A DNA stretch of 33,665 nucleotides from Candidatus Falkowiibacteriota bacterium (GTDB lineage Bacteria; Patescibacteriota; Patescibacteriia; Patescibacteriales; Patescibacteriaceae). Made by a program: the position numbers and the translations under genes. Positions 8,487 through 18,405 of this stretch are shown here, one piece after another. Under the pieces are notes generated by a model. The model worked only from the letters and a program-made list of their open reading frames with translations. It did not search any database and was not told where the DNA came from. The stretch is from NCBI GenBank assembly GCA_903897785.1, contig CAIUCZ010000006.1, forward strand, positions 1 through 33,665, in the 5' to 3' direction. Every line of letters starts with the position of its first letter. Position 1 is the stretch's first letter.

Positions 8487-8512
8487 AGATCTAATATCCA
8501 AAATCCGGCTTA
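8487..8512. repeat. ATCTAATATCCAAAATCC word at the 3' end of the first giant pilin gene
   Basis: Nearly the same word as 2641-2662 in front of the solute-binding protein gene, one mismatch over about 21 nt. Here it overlaps the stop codon of the gene at 8510-13285. The rest of 8387-8509 is AT-rich spacer with nothing else recognisable. Confidence 0.6.
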
Positions 8513-11500
8513 TCTGACACATCTGACCGTCAAACCGTTGTTCTTTGCTCTGTAGCCACGAAAAACCGCGGTCGTTGGCGGCGTAGAGGAGGTAATCACT
8601 CGCTCTTCGGCTTTGCCGGTAGAAAATTCCATAGTTGACCAAAAATGCCCTTTCGCACCAATATCAGCAAAAGAACCGGTATCGCTAAACCCGCCATAAG
8701 CACCGTTCCAGGTGGTGTTATTGTAATAGCCCATGTTGCCGAAAGCTCCGGCCGGAACGCAATCAGAACTTAACTGTCGACTCGCCACACAAGTTGTGCT
8801 GGTAACATAAGAATCCTCCAACGTCCACCATTCGTTGGCCGTGTTGGCCGCGCCGTTATCAACCGGGATATGAAAACCGGGCGGACAAATGCCCTGATAT
8901 TTATCCGGCGCTCCGCCGGAAAACAAAGTGTGAGTATTATAGTAACTACTGGTGGCCATGGTTTGCGCCCATTGATAAAGCGCGCCAAACGGTGAAGATG
9001 AATTGCAACTAGACTGATCATTGCCATAGCAATAACGTTGGATCGGATTGTTGTTTTGATCACCGCTACCGGTGGTGATAATCGTCCCCAAATTGAGCGG
9101 CCCGGTCCAACATTGATTAGCACTGTTCACTGTCACGTAAGAACAAGTCGTTGTGCTATTGGCCAAACAAATGCTATGCGGATAAGTAATATTAGCGCCG
9201 CAATTAAAGCTGGCGCAGCTGCCCGGATAATAACCGTTGGTTTGCGTATCAGCCTCTTGGCAAATTTGGTTGGTGGCCGAGCAATCTTGCTTGACACAAA
9301 CCGGGCTGGTATTGAGATTAGTGCAAGCCGGATCAATGGTCACCGTTTTCTTGCTACAACCGTAATAAACAAAGGTGTTTTTGTTATCCATGGTGCAACC
9401 GGAATTAACAGTCGCACAGTTGAGAGCGCAAGTGGCGGCGACAAACTTATTTTGCGTCGCGTTCCAGACGTCATCGGTGGTGGTGTTGTAAACTTTGCTG
9501 ACAATTGCCGTGCCGTTGCAACCGTAATCGCCATGCGTCCCGGAACAATATTTTGCCGTCGAGGTGACAATACAATCGCCGTCATTGCCGCTGATCGTCG
9601 GGCCGGCGCAAACCACTGTCGCCGGTGAAGAAGAACAATCCGAATTGCCAGCGGTATAGCTGTTATAACCGATTGTGCTGTAACCGACAACCGCACCGCT
9701 GCAAGTGCCGACTTCGCACACGCCTTGCTCGCCTTTGTGGCATTGGCCGAACAAATCTTCGTTGATTTGAGCCACCGGGACGCCGTCGGCATTGCCATTG
9801 CAAACCACGCAAGTAAACGGCGTGGCCGTAGCGCTGACCAAGCTCGGCGCGGAGTCCGGTGTCAAAACACCGCCGGAAGTACAACAAGCCGCGCCCGGAT
9901 AATCCCAGTTCAAGTTATCGGCGCAATCGGTATGGTTCAATACCCAACCGGTCATCGTGCCGGGATCGGCGCAGGTGGTCGAAGCGTTGGCAACATTGCC
10001 ATAGCCGTCGTTGTCCGCGTCGCGATAATAAGTCGGACAAACACACTGGCCGGCACTGCAAGTGGCATTGGCTTGGCATTGACTGCAGGTGTTGTTGTAA
10101 GCGGTTTGTTGATGACAGCCGCCACTGCCGTCGCAGGCCGCCGGCTGGGTCAACGGATGAGCTGAATCAAAACAAGCGGTCGCCGGGTTGGGCAAGGCGG
10201 TATAAGCATACGGCGCACTTTGGCTGATACTGCAGTTATGCGTACAGTCGGCTGAAATTTGGCTGGTCGGATCGGCCGCCGACCAAAGCTTGGTACTGCT
10301 GGCATGTAAATCAACCGCTTGGGTGGCGCCGTTGCAAGCATAAGAATTACCCGGCGTCTGGCAATAAGTGACGGTTTGGCTGATGGTGCACTTGCTGTTG
10401 TCTATCGACCAAGTACTGCTGGCGCAAACATAAGTCGACGGTTTATAAGTGCAATAGCTGTTGCCGTTGGTGTCAAGATTGCCGCTGCAAGCGTCTTGCT
10501 GGCAGTTGGCCGGCGTGCTGGTGCATTGATTATAAAGATCCGCATCTTGAGCAATCGCCACCGGCGTATTGGTCGCCCCGTTGCAGGTGACGCAAGTCCA
10601 ACCGGTGCCGACCGGGGCGCCGGTAATAAACCGATTGTTAACACAGCAAGCGCCGCTGGTGCATTGCGCCGTGCACACTCCGTCTTGGCAAACGCCGTTG
10701 TTGGCGCAAGCCGGCGAACAGGTGCCGTTATTCCAAGCGCTTTGCGCCACGCAGCTGCCATTGCCGTCGCAGGTCGAAGGCGTGGTCGACGGCGTATTTT
10801 GATCAGCGCAAGACGGCGGCGTGGTCGGTGAAACCGTGCCGTTGGCTCCGCAATTATGCGTGCAATCGGTATAAATCTGGCTGTTCGGATTGGCCGCGGT
10901 CCACATTTTGGTGCTGCTGGCATAAAGCGTGGTCGTGCTGACATTACTGCTGTTGCAATCATAAGCATTGCCGGAACAGTAATCATTGGCTTGTCGGATC
11001 GTGCATTTGTCAGCCGACATTGACCATGCGCCGGTCTGGCAAATATAAGTTGACGGCTGATAAGCGCAATAACTGTTGCCGGAAGAATAATTACTATAAC
11101 CGATGCCCGTGCCACTGCAGGTGTTTGCCTTGCACGGAGTCGAGGCGCTGCTATTGCAATCGCTAGAAACAGTCCCGCCGGCCACAGTCATCGGTGTACT
11201 GGTACTGCCGTCGCATTTAACACAGACAAATGGCGCGTTGGTGCCATTAACTGTCGGGGTCGTATCGACAGCGGCCGGTTGGCCGTTGGTCCCGCAACAA
11301 GCCTTGCCCGGGAAAATCCAATCGGCATTATCATCGCAATCGATCGCCGTACTGGTGGCGGTATAGCCTTGCGGCGCAATATTACTGCAGGTAGTCGTGG
11401 TTAAGCCATTGATGTTGCCATATAAATCGCCGTCAAGATCCTGGTAATAAGCATAATGAACCAAACAATCGACGCATTGGCCGCCGGAACAAAACGGCGT

Positions 11501-13285
11501 GGAGCCGGAACAAGCAGTTGTCACGCATGTACCGTTATAAGCCGCCGGGCGATCGCAAACACCTTTGCCCTCCGCGTCGCCTGATTTACTGCAACCGACC
11601 GGTTGATTTTTTGGTGTATTGCCGTAACATTCTTCGGGCGGATTGGGCAAATAATAAGTCGTCGGGTTGGTGCCCGTACTGCAAGTAGCATCGCAACTGG
11701 CCGGTCTTTCCCCAACCGACCCGTCCGTCTTGGCATAAAAGACATCACCGGTGCTGGTCACAAAGCCCCAATGAGTCGTGCTGTTGCCAGTGGTCTGACA
11801 ATCATAATGACTGCCGTCACAACTGTAAGTATTATAATAATCGGCACAATAATTGGCATAATCAATGCTAATAGAACTATCTTTGGTTAAAATGGCCATC
11901 GGCGTCGTCGAGCAAACGGAATCTGAATTCAGATAAGCGCAATAACCGTTACCGCTGCCGTTAAGACTGCCGCTACACTTGGCATCCCGGCAAGGATGAG
12001 CGTCATCGGTTGTGCACCGACTGTCCGAACTGCCGATTGCCACCGGCGTGCTCGTCGTGCCGTCGCATTTGACGCACAGCCAATCCCCGTCCGGCGCCTG
12101 ACCTTTGGGCGTCGCTTTATCAGCCATAAATTTATATGGCGAGGTGGAAGTATCGCAACAAGCGCCGCCGCTGCATTGATCAGTCACGCACGCGCCGTCA
12201 CGGCAACCTTCGGTGCAAGTCGCGACTGTCGTTGAATCAATAATGTCTGCCATGTCGCACGCGCCATGGCCGTCACAGCCAAAATAATTTATTATTGCGT
12301 CGTTGTTGGAGCAAGCCGGCGTCGAACTGCAGCTCAAATTTTTGTCAGCCAATTGCGTATCGCCATTGTCGTCGTTATAAACAAAAGATGATGAAGCGTT
12401 AATCGCGCTCGGACTGGTGTTCTGGCAATCCGATCGGCCGTCAACGCAAAGGCTGGCTTCATAACGCTGGCCGCTACAATAGCCTTTGATTGTAAAATCG
12501 CCGGCCGTATGACCGCAAGCTTCACCGGCTTTATAACCGCAATTACTATTGCAACACACACCGGACGAACAAGCGCAACCCGGACCTCCGCCGCCGCTCA
12601 AGCCACAATTGATATGTCTGGTTTCACCGCAAGAATCGGTAGTAGTTTGATAACTCCAATTACCTTGAAATTTTGTCGCGCACAAAACAGAATCCGATTC
12701 GGCATTGTCACAGCTGGTGCCGCGCAATCCGTCATAAGTAGTGGTGTTGACGCCGGAGGTTTGTCCTTTGACATTGGTATTTCCGTCCAAACAATACAGC
12801 CACTGATAACCGGTTTGCCACTGGTCATCATCCGCGCCACAGGTCGCTCCGTCCAAAAGACAAGGATTATCCAAAATTTTCGGATGATATTTTTCCGGCG
12901 GACAAGGAATATAACAGCTTTCTTTGTCTTCGCAAGATTGGCTGGAGTTCGGCGGATCCAGCGGCGCCAAAGCTAAAAATGTTTTATTGTCTTTTTTGGC
13001 GATCAACGGTTTGCCGGGCGTCAGACAATCAAACGTCATATTTTTAGCACTGGCCTTATAACCTTGTTCGCACACCCCGGGAAAAACACCGGCGGCATTA
13101 TAATAAGCGTCCAAAGCGGCTTGCACTTCTTTGGCGTCGGCCACGCGCACGGCGTCATTTTTTTTCACTTGCGCCGCTTGCCAGCCGCCGACACCGATCA
13201 TGGCAATCAACACAAAGACGGCGATCACGATAATGATCTCCACAATAGTAAAACCGGCAAACTTTTTATTTTTAGCCAAAGCCAT
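8510..13285 (-). CDS. giant prepilin-type, cysteine-rich repeat protein with C-terminal FISUMP domain
   Basis: 1591 residues, about ten times a normal pilin. Leader MALAKNKKFAG, then FTIVEIIIVIAVFVLIAMIGV (split here as FTIVE plus the hydrophobic helix), a class III prepilin signal with Glu at +5. After a pilin-like head (to about 110) comes an ectodomain with roughly 130 cysteines. Four copies of a module begin near a CVKCDG/CVTCNG/CVVCNG motif at about residues 401, 685, 895 and 1157. They share CSG...GNSYCAY, W(S)..KCTI, LYASSTK.W and TDCTHNC. Two segments (about 610-665 and 1084-1135) fit the putative metal-binding DxDGDxYGN...DC.DN...PGA.CC pattern. The last 170 or so residues (QCWTGPLNLG, FCYGND-type RYCYGNDQSSC, GICPPGFHIP, final GLTVRCVR) are a FISUMP domain. 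It is probably exported, disulfide-bonded and displayed on or as part of a type IV pilus; an adhesive role is inference. Confidence 0.85.
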   Translation of the reverse strand: MALAKNKKFAGFTIVEIIIVIAVFVLIAMIGVGGWQAAQVKKNDAVRVADAKEVQAALDAYYNAAGVFPGVCEQGYKASAKNMTFDCLTPGKPLIAKKDNKTFLALAPLDPPNSSQSCEDKESCYIPCPPEKYHPKILDNPCLLDGATCGADDDQWQTGYQWLYCLDGNTNVKGQTSGVNTTTYDGLRGTSCDNAESDSVLCATKFQGNWSYQTTTDSCGETRHINCGLSGGGGPGCACSSGVCCNSNCGYKAGEACGHTAGDFTIKGYCSGQRYEASLCVDGRSDCQNTSPSAINASSSFVYNDDNGDTQLADKNLSCSSTPACSNNDAIINYFGCDGHGACDMADIIDSTTVATCTEGCRDGACVTDQCSGGACCDTSTSPYKFMADKATPKGQAPDGDWLCVKCDGTTSTPVAIGSSDSRCTTDDAHPCRDAKCSGSLNGSGNGYCAYLNSDSVCSTTPMAILTKDSSISIDYANYCADYYNTYSCDGSHYDCQTTGNSTTHWGFVTSTGDVFYAKTDGSVGERPASCDATCSTGTNPTTYYLPNPPEECYGNTPKNQPVGCSKSGDAEGKGVCDRPAAYNGTCVTTACSGSTPFCSGGQCVDCLVHYAYYQDLDGDLYGNINGLTTTTCSNIAPQGYTATSTAIDCDDNADWIFPGKACCGTNGQPAAVDTTPTVNGTNAPFVCVKCDGSTSTPMTVAGGTVSSDCNSSASTPCKANTCSGTGIGYSNYSSGNSYCAYQPSTYICQTGAWSMSADKCTIRQANDYCSGNAYDCNSSNVSTTTLYASSTKMWTAANPNSQIYTDCTHNCGANGTVSPTTPPSCADQNTPSTTPSTCDGNGSCVAQSAWNNGTCSPACANNGVCQDGVCTAQCTSGACCVNNRFITGAPVGTGWTCVTCNGATNTPVAIAQDADLYNQCTSTPANCQQDACSGNLDTNGNSYCTYKPSTYVCASSTWSIDNSKCTISQTVTYCQTPGNSYACNGATQAVDLHASSTKLWSAADPTSQISADCTHNCSISQSAPYAYTALPNPATACFDSAHPLTQPAACDGSGGCHQQTAYNNTCSQCQANATCSAGQCVCPTYYRDADNDGYGNVANASTTCADPGTMTGWVLNHTDCADNLNWDYPGAACCTSGGVLTPDSAPSLVSATATPFTCVVCNGNADGVPVAQINEDLFGQCHKGEQGVCEVGTCSGAVVGYSTIGYNSYTAGNSDCSSSPATVVCAGPTISGNDGDCIVTSTAKYCSGTHGDYGCNGTAIVSKVYNTTTDDVWNATQNKFVAATCALNCATVNSGCTMDNKNTFVYYGCSKKTVTIDPACTNLNTSPVCVKQDCSATNQICQEADTQTNGYYPGSCASFNCGANITYPHSICLANSTTTCSYVTVNSANQCWTGPLNLGTIITTGSGDQNNNPIQRYCYGNDQSSCNSSSPFGALYQWAQTMATSSYYNTHTLFSGGAPDKYQGICPPGFHIPVDNGAANTANEWWTLEDSYVTSTTCVASRQLSSDCVPAGAFGNMGYYNNTTWNGAYGGFSDTGSFADIGAKGHFWSTMEFSTGKAEERVITSSTPPTTAVFRGYRAKNNGLTVRCVR

Positions 13286-13435: not shown

Positions 13436-16400
13436 TTAACGATAATAATTCGTCACTACGCATCTGATTGAAGCGCCGATATTAACAGGCGCATGGTAGC
13501 GATTAATTTTCGTGGGATAAGCGCTGCCGATACTTCTAAAAAAAAGATTACCGCTGTCAAAATAATCTTTCGACCAAAAGATTGACGTGTTGGCGTTTGA
13601 ACCGCCATAGCCAAACGAACCGTCCACATTACTAATACCGACATAGCTCAAATTCATGCCGGTTGAAAGTCTCAACTTCGTAGTCGAGGCGGCATCATCG
13701 CATTGCCATTGATCAGACCTGTCTTTATCACAAGTCAGTCCATATTTTTTATAATCTTGTTCCAAATTACTCCAGTCTATATCACCGGCGATCGTTGTTC
13801 CCGGCGGACAGAATCGATCAAGCAAAGAACGATCGTCCCGCGTCGGCAACTGATAAAGTCCGCCCGCGGCGGCACAAGCGCTTTGGTCATTGCCATAACA
13901 AAATTTTTCAAAATTATTGATTGATCGATCCGCGCTATGCAAAGTGCAAGTCGAGGTGGAATTCATCGCTCGAGAAGCACACGTCGTATGTGATGAATCA
14001 TAAGCCTTGCAATTACCCTCGCAATCGTTAATGTATTGGCCGTAATTCAAATTCGATCTCAACCAGCATTCGCCGGCCGTTGCATCATAAAAAGTTTCAT
14101 ACTTCGTGCCGTCTCGCGGGTCTTCGACCTTGCCCTTGCCCGGACCGCAATTATCAAAATTTCCATTAATACACTCCACAGTTTTAATGCTTGACGTCGT
14201 GTTGTCGCCCTGACAACCGTTGCTTCCGTAGTTGCCGCATAGGACACACAGTTCATAGCCGTAGCGCTCCAGCGTGATTGTGCCATTGTTGCAAGTTTGA
14301 TTGGAAAACCAGCCGGTTGTCCACATAACGTGCGCCGGGTCATCGCTCAACCAGTGAGCGGTTCGTTGCGCGCCGGCTCCGCCGTTTTTACCATAAATAT
14401 CCTGCAAAGAAAATTCACCGTTCACCTTTTCCGTTTTGCCCAGCCAGCGATAATGCTGATTGACGTCGGGTACAATCATCCAGTCGCAATAGTCCGACTC
14501 ATCTGCCGTTTTGGCCGGATTGTCACGGCAAACGCCATTTTGATATTCCGGAGTGTATCTGGCGGTAACATAAGTATTGTACCAATTGGCATCGCCATAA
14601 CCGTCGCCGTCCGTATCTAATGTCGTTGTGCCGCTTAGCGCGTCCGTGCACGCCATATCGCCGCAGCTGTTGTTGGCATCATTACACGGACTGCTTGCCG
14701 CCGGCCCGAAATAACCGGCTTTAAAATTATTTAAATAATTCAAATTGTCTGTCGAGTAAGTCAAATAAGATTTTAACCCGCTTTGATTATCAATCGCCGT
14801 CGTCGGAATCGCCGTATTCCAAATCACCTCGCCGACATGGCTGGCGTCATCGCCATAGCAATAATAAGCCACATTACCGCTGCCGGCGGTAGTCAAAAAT
14901 CCGCCGCTCGTGTCGCAACCGGCAGAATCGCAAATTGCGCCGCCGCAACCGGGCGTCGGATCGATGCAAGCCTTGCTGATCACGTTTTTGACAATCCGGC
15001 CGCAATAATTATTGGTATTGCCGTTGCTGTCGCGGCCGCACGTCGAGCTGGTGTTAAACTGCGTCCAATCCCCGCCCATACTGTTTTTGTTCGGCCAAGC
15101 CGGCACGGAAAAATTACCGTAATTATTAATGTCGCCGCCACTGCCCTCCCAAAATTGATGCATGGCGCAACCGGACCAACTGGGATTGGTCACATTACGC
15201 TGCCAAAGAACATCTCTGGCATTATAGTTGATTGTACTGGTGCCGTCTGATGAAGCGACAAACCCCGGGGTCAAACAAACCGCGCAGGTTTTTGGATAAT
15301 CGTGGGCATAACAAGTTTTATTTTTGGCCAAATGCGTTTCCCACTGACAACAACGATTATTATCCGCTTGTTTCAAATCGGCAAAATTTACCGCTTGGGT
15401 ATTTTGGCCGCTGCCAAAATACCATCCGCCCGCGCCGTTCGGATGAGCCGGCTTGTTTGGATCATTTTTATCAACATAACACTGATCGTCGCAACCGACG
15501 TCTTTGACCAAATAATTCGTGCCCCAAGCGCCTTGATCGCTCCAGGGCACGGAAAAAATACATTTTCGATTGACTTCCGTACAATGGCAAGTTTGCTGAG
15601 TATTACTTGTCGCTTGGCACGTCCAAGTGCCGTTGCATTTATGCCAAGCCGCGTTGGCATCGGTATCGTCGGGAATGGGGAAATTAATTAAAGCCGTATC
15701 GGTCGCCGCACCGCCGCCCGGCATATGATTACCGTCAGCACAGGCGGTTAGCCAATTTCTGGTAACCGAATAGAAGGTGGCGGTGGCGCCGTCGCAATTA
15801 TCTTTCGTGCAAGGCGCATCCCAAGCGGCGTCGGCCGTAGTCGTGGCCGTGTCCCAACGATCGTTAGCCGTGCTGGTACAAGTTTTATAATCGGCATCGC
15901 TAAAACAATAATTGGCCGCGCAATGATAAGCGCAAGTGTTATTGTCGGCTGGCTCGGTCGCGCCATAAGAAGCGTTACTCGGCAGCCACTTTTTGTTAGC
16001 GTAATCATAACGCTGATCAACTTGGCAAGTTTGACTATTACCGCAATTGTCATCCCACCACACGGCATAGCTCGGCCGATTCGGACTGCAAACTTTTGTT
16101 TGTTCGTTAATGCACTTGCCGTCGACCCAATCATATTCGTCTTTGCAAACATAATGACAAGCATCGGCGGCCGCTTCCGTGTCATAACTCGTGTCGGTAG
16201 CCGGGCTCCAGGCCGTTTCGTCGCTGTCGCTAGTATTTGAAGTATAGGCTTGCGTAATCGTATTCGTACTGTTCCACTGGGTGGTGGCCTGCCAATCGCT
16301 TTGCAAAGTTGACGTAGCACAAGCGGCTTGGCGAGAAGCAATGCAAGTATTCTTGGTAATATCATAATAATAACCCGCTCGGCATTTAAAATAACAATTA

Positions 16401-17797
16401 CCCGTGCCGGCCACCAAACTATGGGTATAAGTCAGCCCCGGCCGCCAATCATATGAATCGTTCTCGTCCGTCCAATTTTGAGTGATATTGTTGACGCTGT
16501 TGTAATTGGCATAGTCCGGCAAGCCGAAGCAATCTCGGGTGCGCGTAGCCAAACAATCCTCGGCCGTAGACGTTTGCGTGGCCGTAGTCCAATTCCAAGT
16601 TCTGCCGCAAACAAAATTACAGCAATCTTTATGGTCTTCCGTACCGCAAGCCGGACTAGTCCCATCAGAATGCTCCAGCCGGGTTGCCTCCGGCATATAT
16701 CGCTCCAAGCTGGAATTCCAAAGTTGTTCAAACGTACTGCTGGCATACCAGTGGTATCGGCTGGTTTCGTCAAAATCGATTTTGTCGCCCAAAACCAAAA
16801 TATCCGTCGCATCGGTCGTCGTGCAATCCGGATATTGCGGCAAAGGCAGAATGCAACGGCAACCTTGCTCGTCGCAGACAAAATGATAATTTTTATGACA
16901 GTAAAACGCGCACTGTCTCGGATGCAGCTGGTCCAGCTGATCAAATGTTTTTTGCTGAATGGAAATAATCAGATTCCTCAAAGTACTGCTGTTATAAGTC
17001 AAATCACATTGGTCGCTCGGTTCATATTTGCCGCTATTGGTCGACCAAATCGCCCAATAGTGCAGAGAAAAAGTGGCGTTACTTCTGTCGGTAATTCCCC
17101 AATTGTCCCAATTGCACGCACATTGAACATCGGGATGGCATGGATTGGTGCAATAACTGCCGCAACCGTCAGCCGGCGGCGTATTTTTCTGATCGGTTTT
17201 ATCCCAGCAATTGGTCGTATCATTACAATTGGGCTGGCACGGTCCGCCCTCGCCCAAAGCGATCAGCTGATGCGGCGTGGCCAAATAATAACCGGCTTTG
17301 TTGTTGCCATTGATGCCCGCCGGCAAACAAAATTTAATGGCATAAGGAAATGTCGTGGTCGCCTTGGCGTTCGGATCATACCATTGATAATTTAAATAAT
17401 AATGATCGCCCAGATTCGGCTCGGTGTTGGTGCAGGCTTGATTATCTTCGATAACCGGCAATTCCGGAATGGCCTCCAGATAAACCGTGCCGCTGTTTTT
17501 AACTTTGTTCAGCAAGGGCTGGCCGGAAATCACTTCGTTTAAATTAGCATCGGCGGCGCTCATGGTCGGGTAACGATGTTCATAAGCATTAAACTGTTCG
17601 GCGCGCTGCTGAAATAAAGTAACCGCCAGCATGGTTGTGCTGGCCACGGAAGACGCTTTCGGCCGATCAAAATAATAAAAACCCAAAGCGGTCAGGATGA
17701 CGATAATCGCCAACACCACCAGCACCTCGATCAAGGTGAAAGCGGTTTTAGTTGGTAGTCGGTAGTTGGTAGTTGGTAATTTGTCAGGTAAAGACAT
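13436..17797 (-). CDS. second giant prepilin-type, cysteine-rich protein with C-terminal FISUMP domain
   Basis: 1453 residues. A 19-residue leader ends TKTA before FTLIEVLVVLAIIVILTALG, a canonical class III prepilin signal. Residues 20-180 resemble the whole small pilin encoded next door: ISGQPLLNK...GTVYLEAIPELP and YAIKFCLPAG...LATPHQLI match its ISGQSLTARGAVFLDNLPFLP and YVINFCLPAD...KTATPQGI. A long ectodomain rich in Cys, Trp, Asn, Asp and Thr follows, with repeated YHCxAxYxF-like Cys pairs and one LDTDGDGYGDANW calcium-loop-like motif. It ends in a FISUMP domain (about 1235-1453; CWLRSNLNYG, FEKFCYGNDQSAC, LYQLPTRDD, RFCPPGTTI, final SIRCVVTNYYR). It is exported and probably pilus- or surface-bound. 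No homologue with a proven role is known to me. Confidence 0.85.
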   Translation of the reverse strand: MSLPDKLPTTNYRLPTKTAFTLIEVLVVLAIIVILTALGFYYFDRPKASSVASTTMLAVTLFQQRAEQFNAYEHRYPTMSAADANLNEVISGQPLLNKVKNSGTVYLEAIPELPVIEDNQACTNTEPNLGDHYYLNYQWYDPNAKATTTFPYAIKFCLPAGINGNNKAGYYLATPHQLIALGEGGPCQPNCNDTTNCWDKTDQKNTPPADGCGSYCTNPCHPDVQCACNWDNWGITDRSNATFSLHYWAIWSTNSGKYEPSDQCDLTYNSSTLRNLIISIQQKTFDQLDQLHPRQCAFYCHKNYHFVCDEQGCRCILPLPQYPDCTTTDATDILVLGDKIDFDETSRYHWYASSTFEQLWNSSLERYMPEATRLEHSDGTSPACGTEDHKDCCNFVCGRTWNWTTATQTSTAEDCLATRTRDCFGLPDYANYNSVNNITQNWTDENDSYDWRPGLTYTHSLVAGTGNCYFKCRAGYYYDITKNTCIASRQAACATSTLQSDWQATTQWNSTNTITQAYTSNTSDSDETAWSPATDTSYDTEAAADACHYVCKDEYDWVDGKCINEQTKVCSPNRPSYAVWWDDNCGNSQTCQVDQRYDYANKKWLPSNASYGATEPADNNTCAYHCAANYCFSDADYKTCTSTANDRWDTATTTADAAWDAPCTKDNCDGATATFYSVTRNWLTACADGNHMPGGGAATDTALINFPIPDDTDANAAWHKCNGTWTCQATSNTQQTCHCTEVNRKCIFSVPWSDQGAWGTNYLVKDVGCDDQCYVDKNDPNKPAHPNGAGGWYFGSGQNTQAVNFADLKQADNNRCCQWETHLAKNKTCYAHDYPKTCAVCLTPGFVASSDGTSTINYNARDVLWQRNVTNPSWSGCAMHQFWEGSGGDINNYGNFSVPAWPNKNSMGGDWTQFNTSSTCGRDSNGNTNNYCGRIVKNVISKACIDPTPGCGGAICDSAGCDTSGGFLTTAGSGNVAYYCYGDDASHVGEVIWNTAIPTTAIDNQSGLKSYLTYSTDNLNYLNNFKAGYFGPAASSPCNDANNSCGDMACTDALSGTTTLDTDGDGYGDANWYNTYVTARYTPEYQNGVCRDNPAKTADESDYCDWMIVPDVNQHYRWLGKTEKVNGEFSLQDIYGKNGGAGAQRTAHWLSDDPAHVMWTTGWFSNQTCNNGTITLERYGYELCVLCGNYGSNGCQGDNTTSSIKTVECINGNFDNCGPGKGKVEDPRDGTKYETFYDATAGECWLRSNLNYGQYINDCEGNCKAYDSSHTTCASRAMNSTSTCTLHSADRSINNFEKFCYGNDQSACAAAGGLYQLPTRDDRSLLDRFCPPGTTIAGDIDWSNLEQDYKKYGLTCDKDRSDQWQCDDAASTTKLRLSTGMNLSYVGISNVDGSFGYGGSNANTSIFWSKDYFDSGNLFFRSIGSAYPTKINRYHAPVNIGASIRCVVTNYYR
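17752..17786. repeat. TTGGTAGTCGGTAG microsatellite coding for the second giant's leader peptide
   Basis: Tandem near-copies of GGTAGTTGGTA, a word type usual in CPR spacers. Here they form the codons LPTTNYRLPT of the prepilin leader just before the cleavage site. Confidence 0.65.
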
Positions 17798-17837: not shown

Positions 17838-17903
17838 AGAATCTGGAATTTGGAATCTGGAAAAATTCGCATTCCAAATTATAAATTCCAAATTCCAGAT
17901 TCT
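17838..17903. repeat. 19-bp perfect inverted repeat, GAATCTGGAATTTGGAAT family
   Basis: AGAATCTGGAATTTGGAAT (17838-17856) is exactly inverted at 17885-17903, with an ATTCG word in the loop. The right arm supplies the stop codon of the small pilin gene. The same word family is found at 21171-21187, 21263-21283 and 32264-32331. Confidence 0.8.
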
Positions 17904-18405
17904 ACGGCATAATCGGCACCACCGCCCCTTTATCAATCCCCTGCGGCGTTGCCGTTTTCAAGCCGGCGGAAATCGACGGACCGACATCGGCCGGCAAACA
18001 GAAGTTAATCACATAGGCTGCGCCCTTATTCTTTACTTGATAAAGTAAGGTCAGATCGTTGCTATTGTTCGGATTGGCACACGGACTGCCCGTCGGCAAA
18101 TTGGGTAAAAACGGCAGGTTGTCCAAAAACACTGCACCCCTGGCCGTCAAACTCTGGCCGGAAATTAAAAATGGCGGATAATGGCCGGTTGCCGCGCGAT
18201 AATATTCCAGCCGCTGTTGCACCAGCTGCACATCCGCCAGCGTCTGGGCGGCCGCGGAAATTTGTCGCGGCTGATTCAAACCGACCAAAGCCAAAGCCGC
18301 CAGCAGAACGATGATAGCCAAGACGACCAGAACTTCTATCAAGGTGAAAGCGGTGTTAGATTGTAGGTCGCAGATTGTAGGTTGTAGACCACTCCCCGTT
18401 CGCAT
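17902..18405 (-). CDS. type IV pilin-like protein (prepilin-type N-terminal methylation domain)
   Basis: 167 residues from the ATG at 18405, the normal size of a pilin or pseudopilin. The leader is 19 residues ending SNTA, then FTLIEVLVVLAIIVLLAALA with Glu at +5; prepilin peptidase would cut before the Phe. The head carries an N-terminal helix and a C-terminal Cys pair (SPCANPNN and INFCLPAD) that could form a disulfide loop. Its whole length aligns with the first 180 residues of the downstream giant, which shows how the giant arose. The frame stays open upstream into ftsK, but the class III signal fixes the start near 18405; a start at 18471 (MNELRST) is possible. It may be the major or a minor subunit of the same pilus. 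No promoter is clear; co-transcription with ftsK is possible. Confidence 0.85.
   Translation of the reverse strand: MRTGSGLQPTICDLQSNTAFTLIEVLVVLAIIVLLAALALVGLNQPRQISAAAQTLADVQLVQQRLEYYRAATGHYPPFLISGQSLTARGAVFLDNLPFLPNLPTGSPCANPNNSNDLTLLYQVKNKGAAYVINFCLPADVGPSISAGLKTATPQGIDKGAVVPIMP

Follow-up and report, generated by a model that had tools for sequence, protein, structure and literature searches.

A giant cysteine-rich prepilin with a predicted C-type-lectin-like head in a Candidatus Falkowiibacteriota genome

The window, by which we mean the whole analysed stretch of 33,665 nucleotides, encodes a protein (P0001) that we consider reasonably likely to be a giant modular minor pilin of a type IV pilus, displaying a C-type-lectin-like binding head. 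This is the most likely reading of a prepilin signal with its pilin module, four cysteine-rich modules, a C-terminal FISUMP domain and the pilus machinery of the genome, from which we infer assembly into a filament, a position at its tip and attachment to a host. The features of P0001 and of the adjacent prepilin genes are as follows.

8510 to 13285, minus strand: P0001, giant modular prepilin, intact open reading frame of 1591 aa and 165 kDa
12581 to 13285, minus strand: class III prepilin signal G11^F12TIVE and pilin module, residues ~1-235 (PF07963, geopilin 9egp; C-terminal border approximate)
12185 to 12580, minus strand: cysteine-rich stretch, residues 236-367, possibly a degenerate module
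11450 to 12184, minus strand: cysteine-rich module 1, residues 368-612 (this and the next three by pairwise alignment of modules)
10652 to 11308, minus strand: cysteine-rich module 2, residues 660-878
10022 to 10669, minus strand: cysteine-rich module 3, residues 873-1088
9251 to 9898, minus strand: cysteine-rich module 4, residues 1130-1345
11294 to 11452, minus strand: acidic segment 1 with DLDGDLYGN (residue 616), residues 612-664
9878 to 10036, minus strand: acidic segment 2 with DADNDGYGN (residue 1089), residues 1084-1136
8513 to 9124, minus strand: FISUMP domain (PF09603/TIGR02145), residues 1388-1591, predicted C-type lectin fold (HMM scores, structure model)
13436 to 17797, minus strand: P0002, second giant prepilin, 1453 aa with 82 cysteines (PF07963 21.4 bits; C-terminal FISUMP)
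17902 to 18405, minus strand: small prepilin, ~167 aa, start codon uncertain (PF07963 25.5 bits), first of the three prepilin genes

The position and length that a preliminary description had given for P0001 are right, with the minus strand as the coding strand, and its estimate of roughly 130 cysteines turns out to be the exact residue count. Cysteine thus makes up 8.2% of P0001 versus 0.65% of the eleven other proteins of the window. The N-terminus reads MALAKNKKFAG^FTIVEIIIVIAVFVLIAMIG, a class III prepilin signal in which Glu5 is present. This signal, which the same description had proposed, is borne out by the G^FTIVE sequence, by a PF07963 match of 23.1 bits in a six-frame search of the genome (cut-off 21.2; the search with whole P0001 gives 16.5 bits, which is under that cut-off) and by the resemblance of residues 7-69 to Geobacter geopilin structures (9egp, E 2.4e-4). 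Judged by sequence, P0001 would classify as a modular type IV pilin, as it joins a prepilin signal to a C-terminal domain not tied to type IV pilus biology, in a genome that encodes both the pilus machinery and a prepilin peptidase.

HMM searches of this genome recognise PilM, two T2SSE ATPases and T2SSF. On contig C75, one locus for pilus assembly encodes PilM, the PilB-type ATPase, the PilC-type platform protein and an ordinary pilin, while the second, PilT-like T2SSE ATPase lies on contig C25 and the prepilin peptidase on contig C23 (Peptidase_A24, 43.1 bits). Fifteen prepilin signals exceed the PF07963 cut-off. Going upstream from P0001, the gene order is P0002, the small prepilin and ftsK, with all three on the minus strand; the FISUMP domain of P0002 is matched at 13457-14077 with about 48.5-48.8 bits for PF09603. 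Further modular pilins of the genome confirmed by HMM carry LamG (C30), Lcl_C (C55) or FISUMP (C39); for C30 and C37, inspection of the sequences by eye suggests more pilins of the LamG type. Pilins with LamG-type or Lcl_C heads are located at L066:5139-10615 (minus strand), L067:6377-7639 (minus strand) and L065:3990-5087 (plus strand).

The prepilin signal could instead act only as a membrane anchor, so that P0001 would be a stalked surface receptor or adhesin outside the pilus filament. The great length of P0001 would suit such a protein, as would the giant FISUMP proteins seen at selected loci elsewhere in the order, which start with Sec-type or transmembrane (TM) segments and not with prepilin signals. 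Because of these starts, a pilus-free surface role appears to be common for the FISUMP head. Prepilin-FISUMP proteins recognised at selected loci of the order are ~350-510 aa long, and in this selected, non-exhaustive set a prepilin start together with FISUMP on a protein of >1000 aa occurs only in the genome studied here, where it occurs twice. We nevertheless regard the anchor as unlikely, since the signal is canonical (G^FTIVE with Glu5), a small prepilin and a second giant prepilin are neighbours, and the pilus machinery looks complete.

The C-terminal FISUMP domain named in the preliminary description is confirmed by two models, both over their cut-offs: P0001 scores 45.1 bits for PF09603 (cut-off 33.9) and 47.2 bits for the NCBIfam model TIGR02145 (cut-off 41.65). 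We take IPR011871 to be the FISUMP entry. A structure model of the domain built from 47 sequences reaches a pLDDT of 74 and a pTM of 0.76. In a Foldseek search with this model, Legionella Lcl (E 0.014) and Bdellovibrio Bd2740 (E 0.25) rank first. Realignment gives a Z of 7.8 over 96 residues (rmsd 2.9) for Bd2740 and a Z of 7.4 over 97 residues (rmsd 2.6) for Lcl, and behind these two come many further domains of the C-type lectin-like class, among them BDCA2, mannose receptor CRD-4 and Mincle. Nearly all structural matches share the C-type lectin fold. We conclude from the model that the FISUMP head of P0001 likely adopts this fold; the agreement among the matches is telling, but none of the scores settles it alone, and as they are moderate, with all Z below 8 and a best Foldseek E of 0.014, we stop short of calling the fold proven.

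FISUMP is present in 39 of the 117 genomes searched, with a maximum of 21 copies in one genome. In a scan of genome contigs covering genomes other than its own, the matches come mainly from Bacteroidetes. Among the papers covered here, none names FISUMP. In the P0001 genome the domain is also borne by a subtilase of 2186 aa with 127 cysteines and a Sec-type signal (L008:9743-16303, minus strand). Two giant cysteine-rich secreted proteins of 1996 and 1717 aa with a like layout are neighbours at L010:2312-13623 (minus strand), and the 1996-aa protein carries FISUMP and a Sec-type start. In the relative G008, six tandem modular prepilin genes (351-378 aa; L192:890-7260, minus strand) look like an expanded array, and four of the six have a FISUMP motif.

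P0001 is probably used for holding on to other cells or surfaces. A pilus-borne P0001 that binds abiotic surfaces, polysaccharides or particles instead of a host cell seems to us somewhat doubtful, even though C-type lectin folds take many ligands and the domain is widespread among genomes of Bacteroidetes, Ignavibacteria and the Fibrobacter type, none of which are known as epibionts. Two indirect arguments speak for a host cell. The nearest fold match stems from the prey-recognition fibres of Bdellovibrio, and cultivated Patescibacteria are all episymbionts (PMC12206443).

Between the pilin module and the head, P0001 is dominated by four copies of a cysteine-rich module. The motif CVxC[DN]G occurs at only four sites, residues 404, 688, 898 and 1159, close to the approximate positions 401, 685, 895 and 1157 given earlier. 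The four copies claimed from the first reading are borne out, and they align above background: the alignment contains 16 invariant cysteines and 13 further invariant residues, and all six module pairs reach a Z of 10.4-28.0 against shuffled sequence. Their likeness exceeds mere cysteine spacing, because a Z of 6.5-17.5 persists in all six pairs against shuffles with every cysteine fixed. The preceding stretch of residues 236-367 reaches a Z of 5.3, to module 2 only. P0002 has a cysteine repeat of its own, CxFxCxxxY...C, with no visible kinship to these modules, and comparison of the P0001 modules with P0002 gave no clear matching pair.

Run on 111 genomes from the order and 380 from the phylum, two sets that each include the P0001 genome, a profile of the module finds the four P0001 copies and nothing else. 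Searches of plasmids, viral contigs, PHROGs, Pfam, NCBIfam and PDB sequences returned no relatives of the module. It is therefore, on current evidence, private to the lineage of P0001. Among the other genomes searched, 110 from the order and 379 from the phylum, none contains it; the module is a new feature, and so is the length of P0001. A predicted structure of the module was discarded at a pLDDT of 43, and because the modules lack a usable structure the word stalk is a guess.

Two homologous acidic segments (Z 15.6) accompany the modules. The preliminary description had reported two DxDGDxYGN segments placed between modules; both segments exist, but only the one at residue 616 fits this pattern, and they precede modules 2 and 4 while none lies between modules 2 and 3. 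A third copy is present in an 827-aa FISUMP protein of the same genome (C39). The segments have a MopE-like look, and MopE-type repeat was considered as a name for them; PF11617, which the preliminary description had suggested as a check, has no match in the segments (E up to 1) or in the genome (E up to 10), and the name was dropped. Since PF11617 fails to recognise the segments, metal binding by them is only a guess. A protein whose acidic segments and cysteines serve chiefly for metal binding or storage could be imagined from the DxDGDxYG resemblance and from the homology of the segments, including the copy in the other FISUMP protein. We consider this highly improbable, as the MopE-type model does not match, just two segments occur within 1591 residues, and the lectin-type head would be left unexplained.

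Fib_succ_major and DUF1566 domains are alike and are targets of retroelements (PMC4159848). In relatives of the P0001 genome, reverse transcriptases adjoin some FISUMP genes, and in 8 of the 10 relatives' loci fetched a repeat close to the FISUMP gene recurs, almost unchanged, at the 3' end of that gene. At these eight loci, 90-100% of the differences in the repeat core fall at template adenines; in G097, the shortest variable repeat, the sites are few and the binomial p is 0.0095 with borders included. Two of the genes, in G012 (424 aa) and G097 (370 aa), encode prepilin-FISUMP fusions in which both HMMs are over cut-off and the 3' end is the variable repeat of a diversity-generating retroelement (DGR):

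L088:3654-4928, minus strand: prepilin-FISUMP gene of a relative with DGR variable repeat (template L088:2914-3092; reverse transcriptase adjacent)
L091:3198-4310, plus strand: prepilin-FISUMP gene of a relative with DGR variable repeat (template L091:5006-5069; reverse transcriptase adjacent)

The G012 template also resembles the 3' ends of four further FISUMP genes at 69-77% identity. The other FISUMP genes that end in DGR variable repeats (L085:2831-8017, L086:2611-8721, L089:4027-7320, L090:2034-3902, L093:2310-3347 and L094:529-1557) all have Sec-type or TM starts, and the products of two of these six, 1728 and 2036 aa long, contain LamG-type domains, which an HMM confirmed for L086. What is new here is that FISUMP 3' ends in relatives, two of them on true prepilins, are DGR variable repeats. 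In this order, retroelements can thus diversify the FISUMP heads of pilins. Adenine-directed variation at the FISUMP ends of prepilins is as expected for a ligand-binding surface, and the variation seen in relatives independently supports such a role for the domain. Among the papers covered here, none treats diversity-generating retroelements together with type IV pilins; a link published elsewhere may exist.

For P0001 itself, DGR control was considered and set aside. Its last 351 bases match only themselves in the assembly, which is 96% complete, so that a template on a missing contig is possible. The only reverse transcriptase of the genome (L084:6899-7510, plus strand) is broken by a TAA stop, and its surroundings revealed no template/variable pair.

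The preliminary description had pictured a pilin with a long cysteine-rich stalk and a terminal binding domain. This picture gains support from the predicted C-type lectin fold and from the hypervariable FISUMP domains of relatives. In a pilus-borne P0001, the prepilin peptidase would cut the leader after Gly11 and the protein would enter the filament via its hydrophobic helix. Because P0001 is bulky, it would probably be located at or near the pilus tip. There, the cysteine-rich modules may form a disulfide-stiffened stalk that keeps the head clear of the filament, and the FISUMP head would bind a ligand carried by a partner cell or by another surface. The pilus would then tether the cell, and retraction would pull it in. 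P0002, the LamG pilins and the Lcl_C pilin may represent parallel heads with different specificities.

Beyond that, the type IV pilus of this order could bear a bank of pilin-borne C-type-lectin heads, some hypermutated by DGRs, that serves as an evolvable means of partner recognition; P0001 and P0002 would be its long-stalk forms, with a private cysteine-rich stalk module. We put this forward tentatively. A pilin family with heads of the lectin type, in part retroelement-diversified, offers concrete genes for the question of partner choice and attachment in epibiotic Patescibacteria. P0001 also extends the known range of type IV pilins in both size and architecture, and it poses the question by what route a cysteine-rich pilin of 165 kDa leaves a monoderm cell and is assembled. 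We know of no precedent for export and disulfide bonding of a pilin of this size by such a cell.

The earlier statement that no described system with this architecture is known was too strong, as the literature contains modular pilins onto which binding domains are grafted, and IPR011871 appears in a published survey (PMC8179133, PMC9934059). Established examples are PilB, with a vWA module, and PilC, with a lectin module, of S. sanguinis; both are modular pilins that bind ligands (PMC8179133, PMC9934059). The survey by Raynaud et al. 2021 counts IPR011871 among the 15 commonest modular pilin architectures, also lists LamG (PF13385) and includes several examples from Patescibacteria; its extreme multi-domain pilin has 860 residues (PMC8179133). 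Like PilB and PilC, P0001 has an N-terminal pilin module and a grafted binding domain (PMC8179133). PilB, however, is ~50 kDa and PilC 53 kDa, whereas P0001 is 165 kDa and contains four private cysteine-rich modules. A further precedent is PilX2 of the cultivated Patescibacterium Nanosynbacter lyticus TM7x, a minor pilin that shares an enlarged C-terminal domain with P0001; PilX2 is needed for full host binding, which is reduced upon its loss (PMC12206443). Its large head is a beta-propeller and its signal peptide noncanonical, in contrast to the predicted C-type lectin head of P0001, and the passages of that source used here report no cysteine modules for PilX2, whereas P0001 has four (PMC12206443). 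Given the described modular pilins, the survey listing and the PilX2 precedent, P0001 thus belongs to a known kind.

Two further groups resemble P0001 in the head. Bd2740 (tip of the Bdellovibrio MAT fibre, PDB 8oks) and Lcl (Legionella, PDB 8q4e) are, as is predicted for P0001, long surface proteins with a C-terminal C-type lectin fold, but neither is a pilin, their identity to the P0001 head is 12-16%, and Bd2740 makes up the tip of its fibre as a trimer. The C-terminal domain of P0001 recurs in the DGR variable proteins that carry Fib_succ_major or DUF1566 (PMC4159848) and in cellular targets of DGRs in the CPR (PMC8144416); P0001 differs from them in having no template repeat in its own assembly. 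From the described modular pilins, P0001 departs by its size, its private cysteine-rich modules and the company of other giant pilins.
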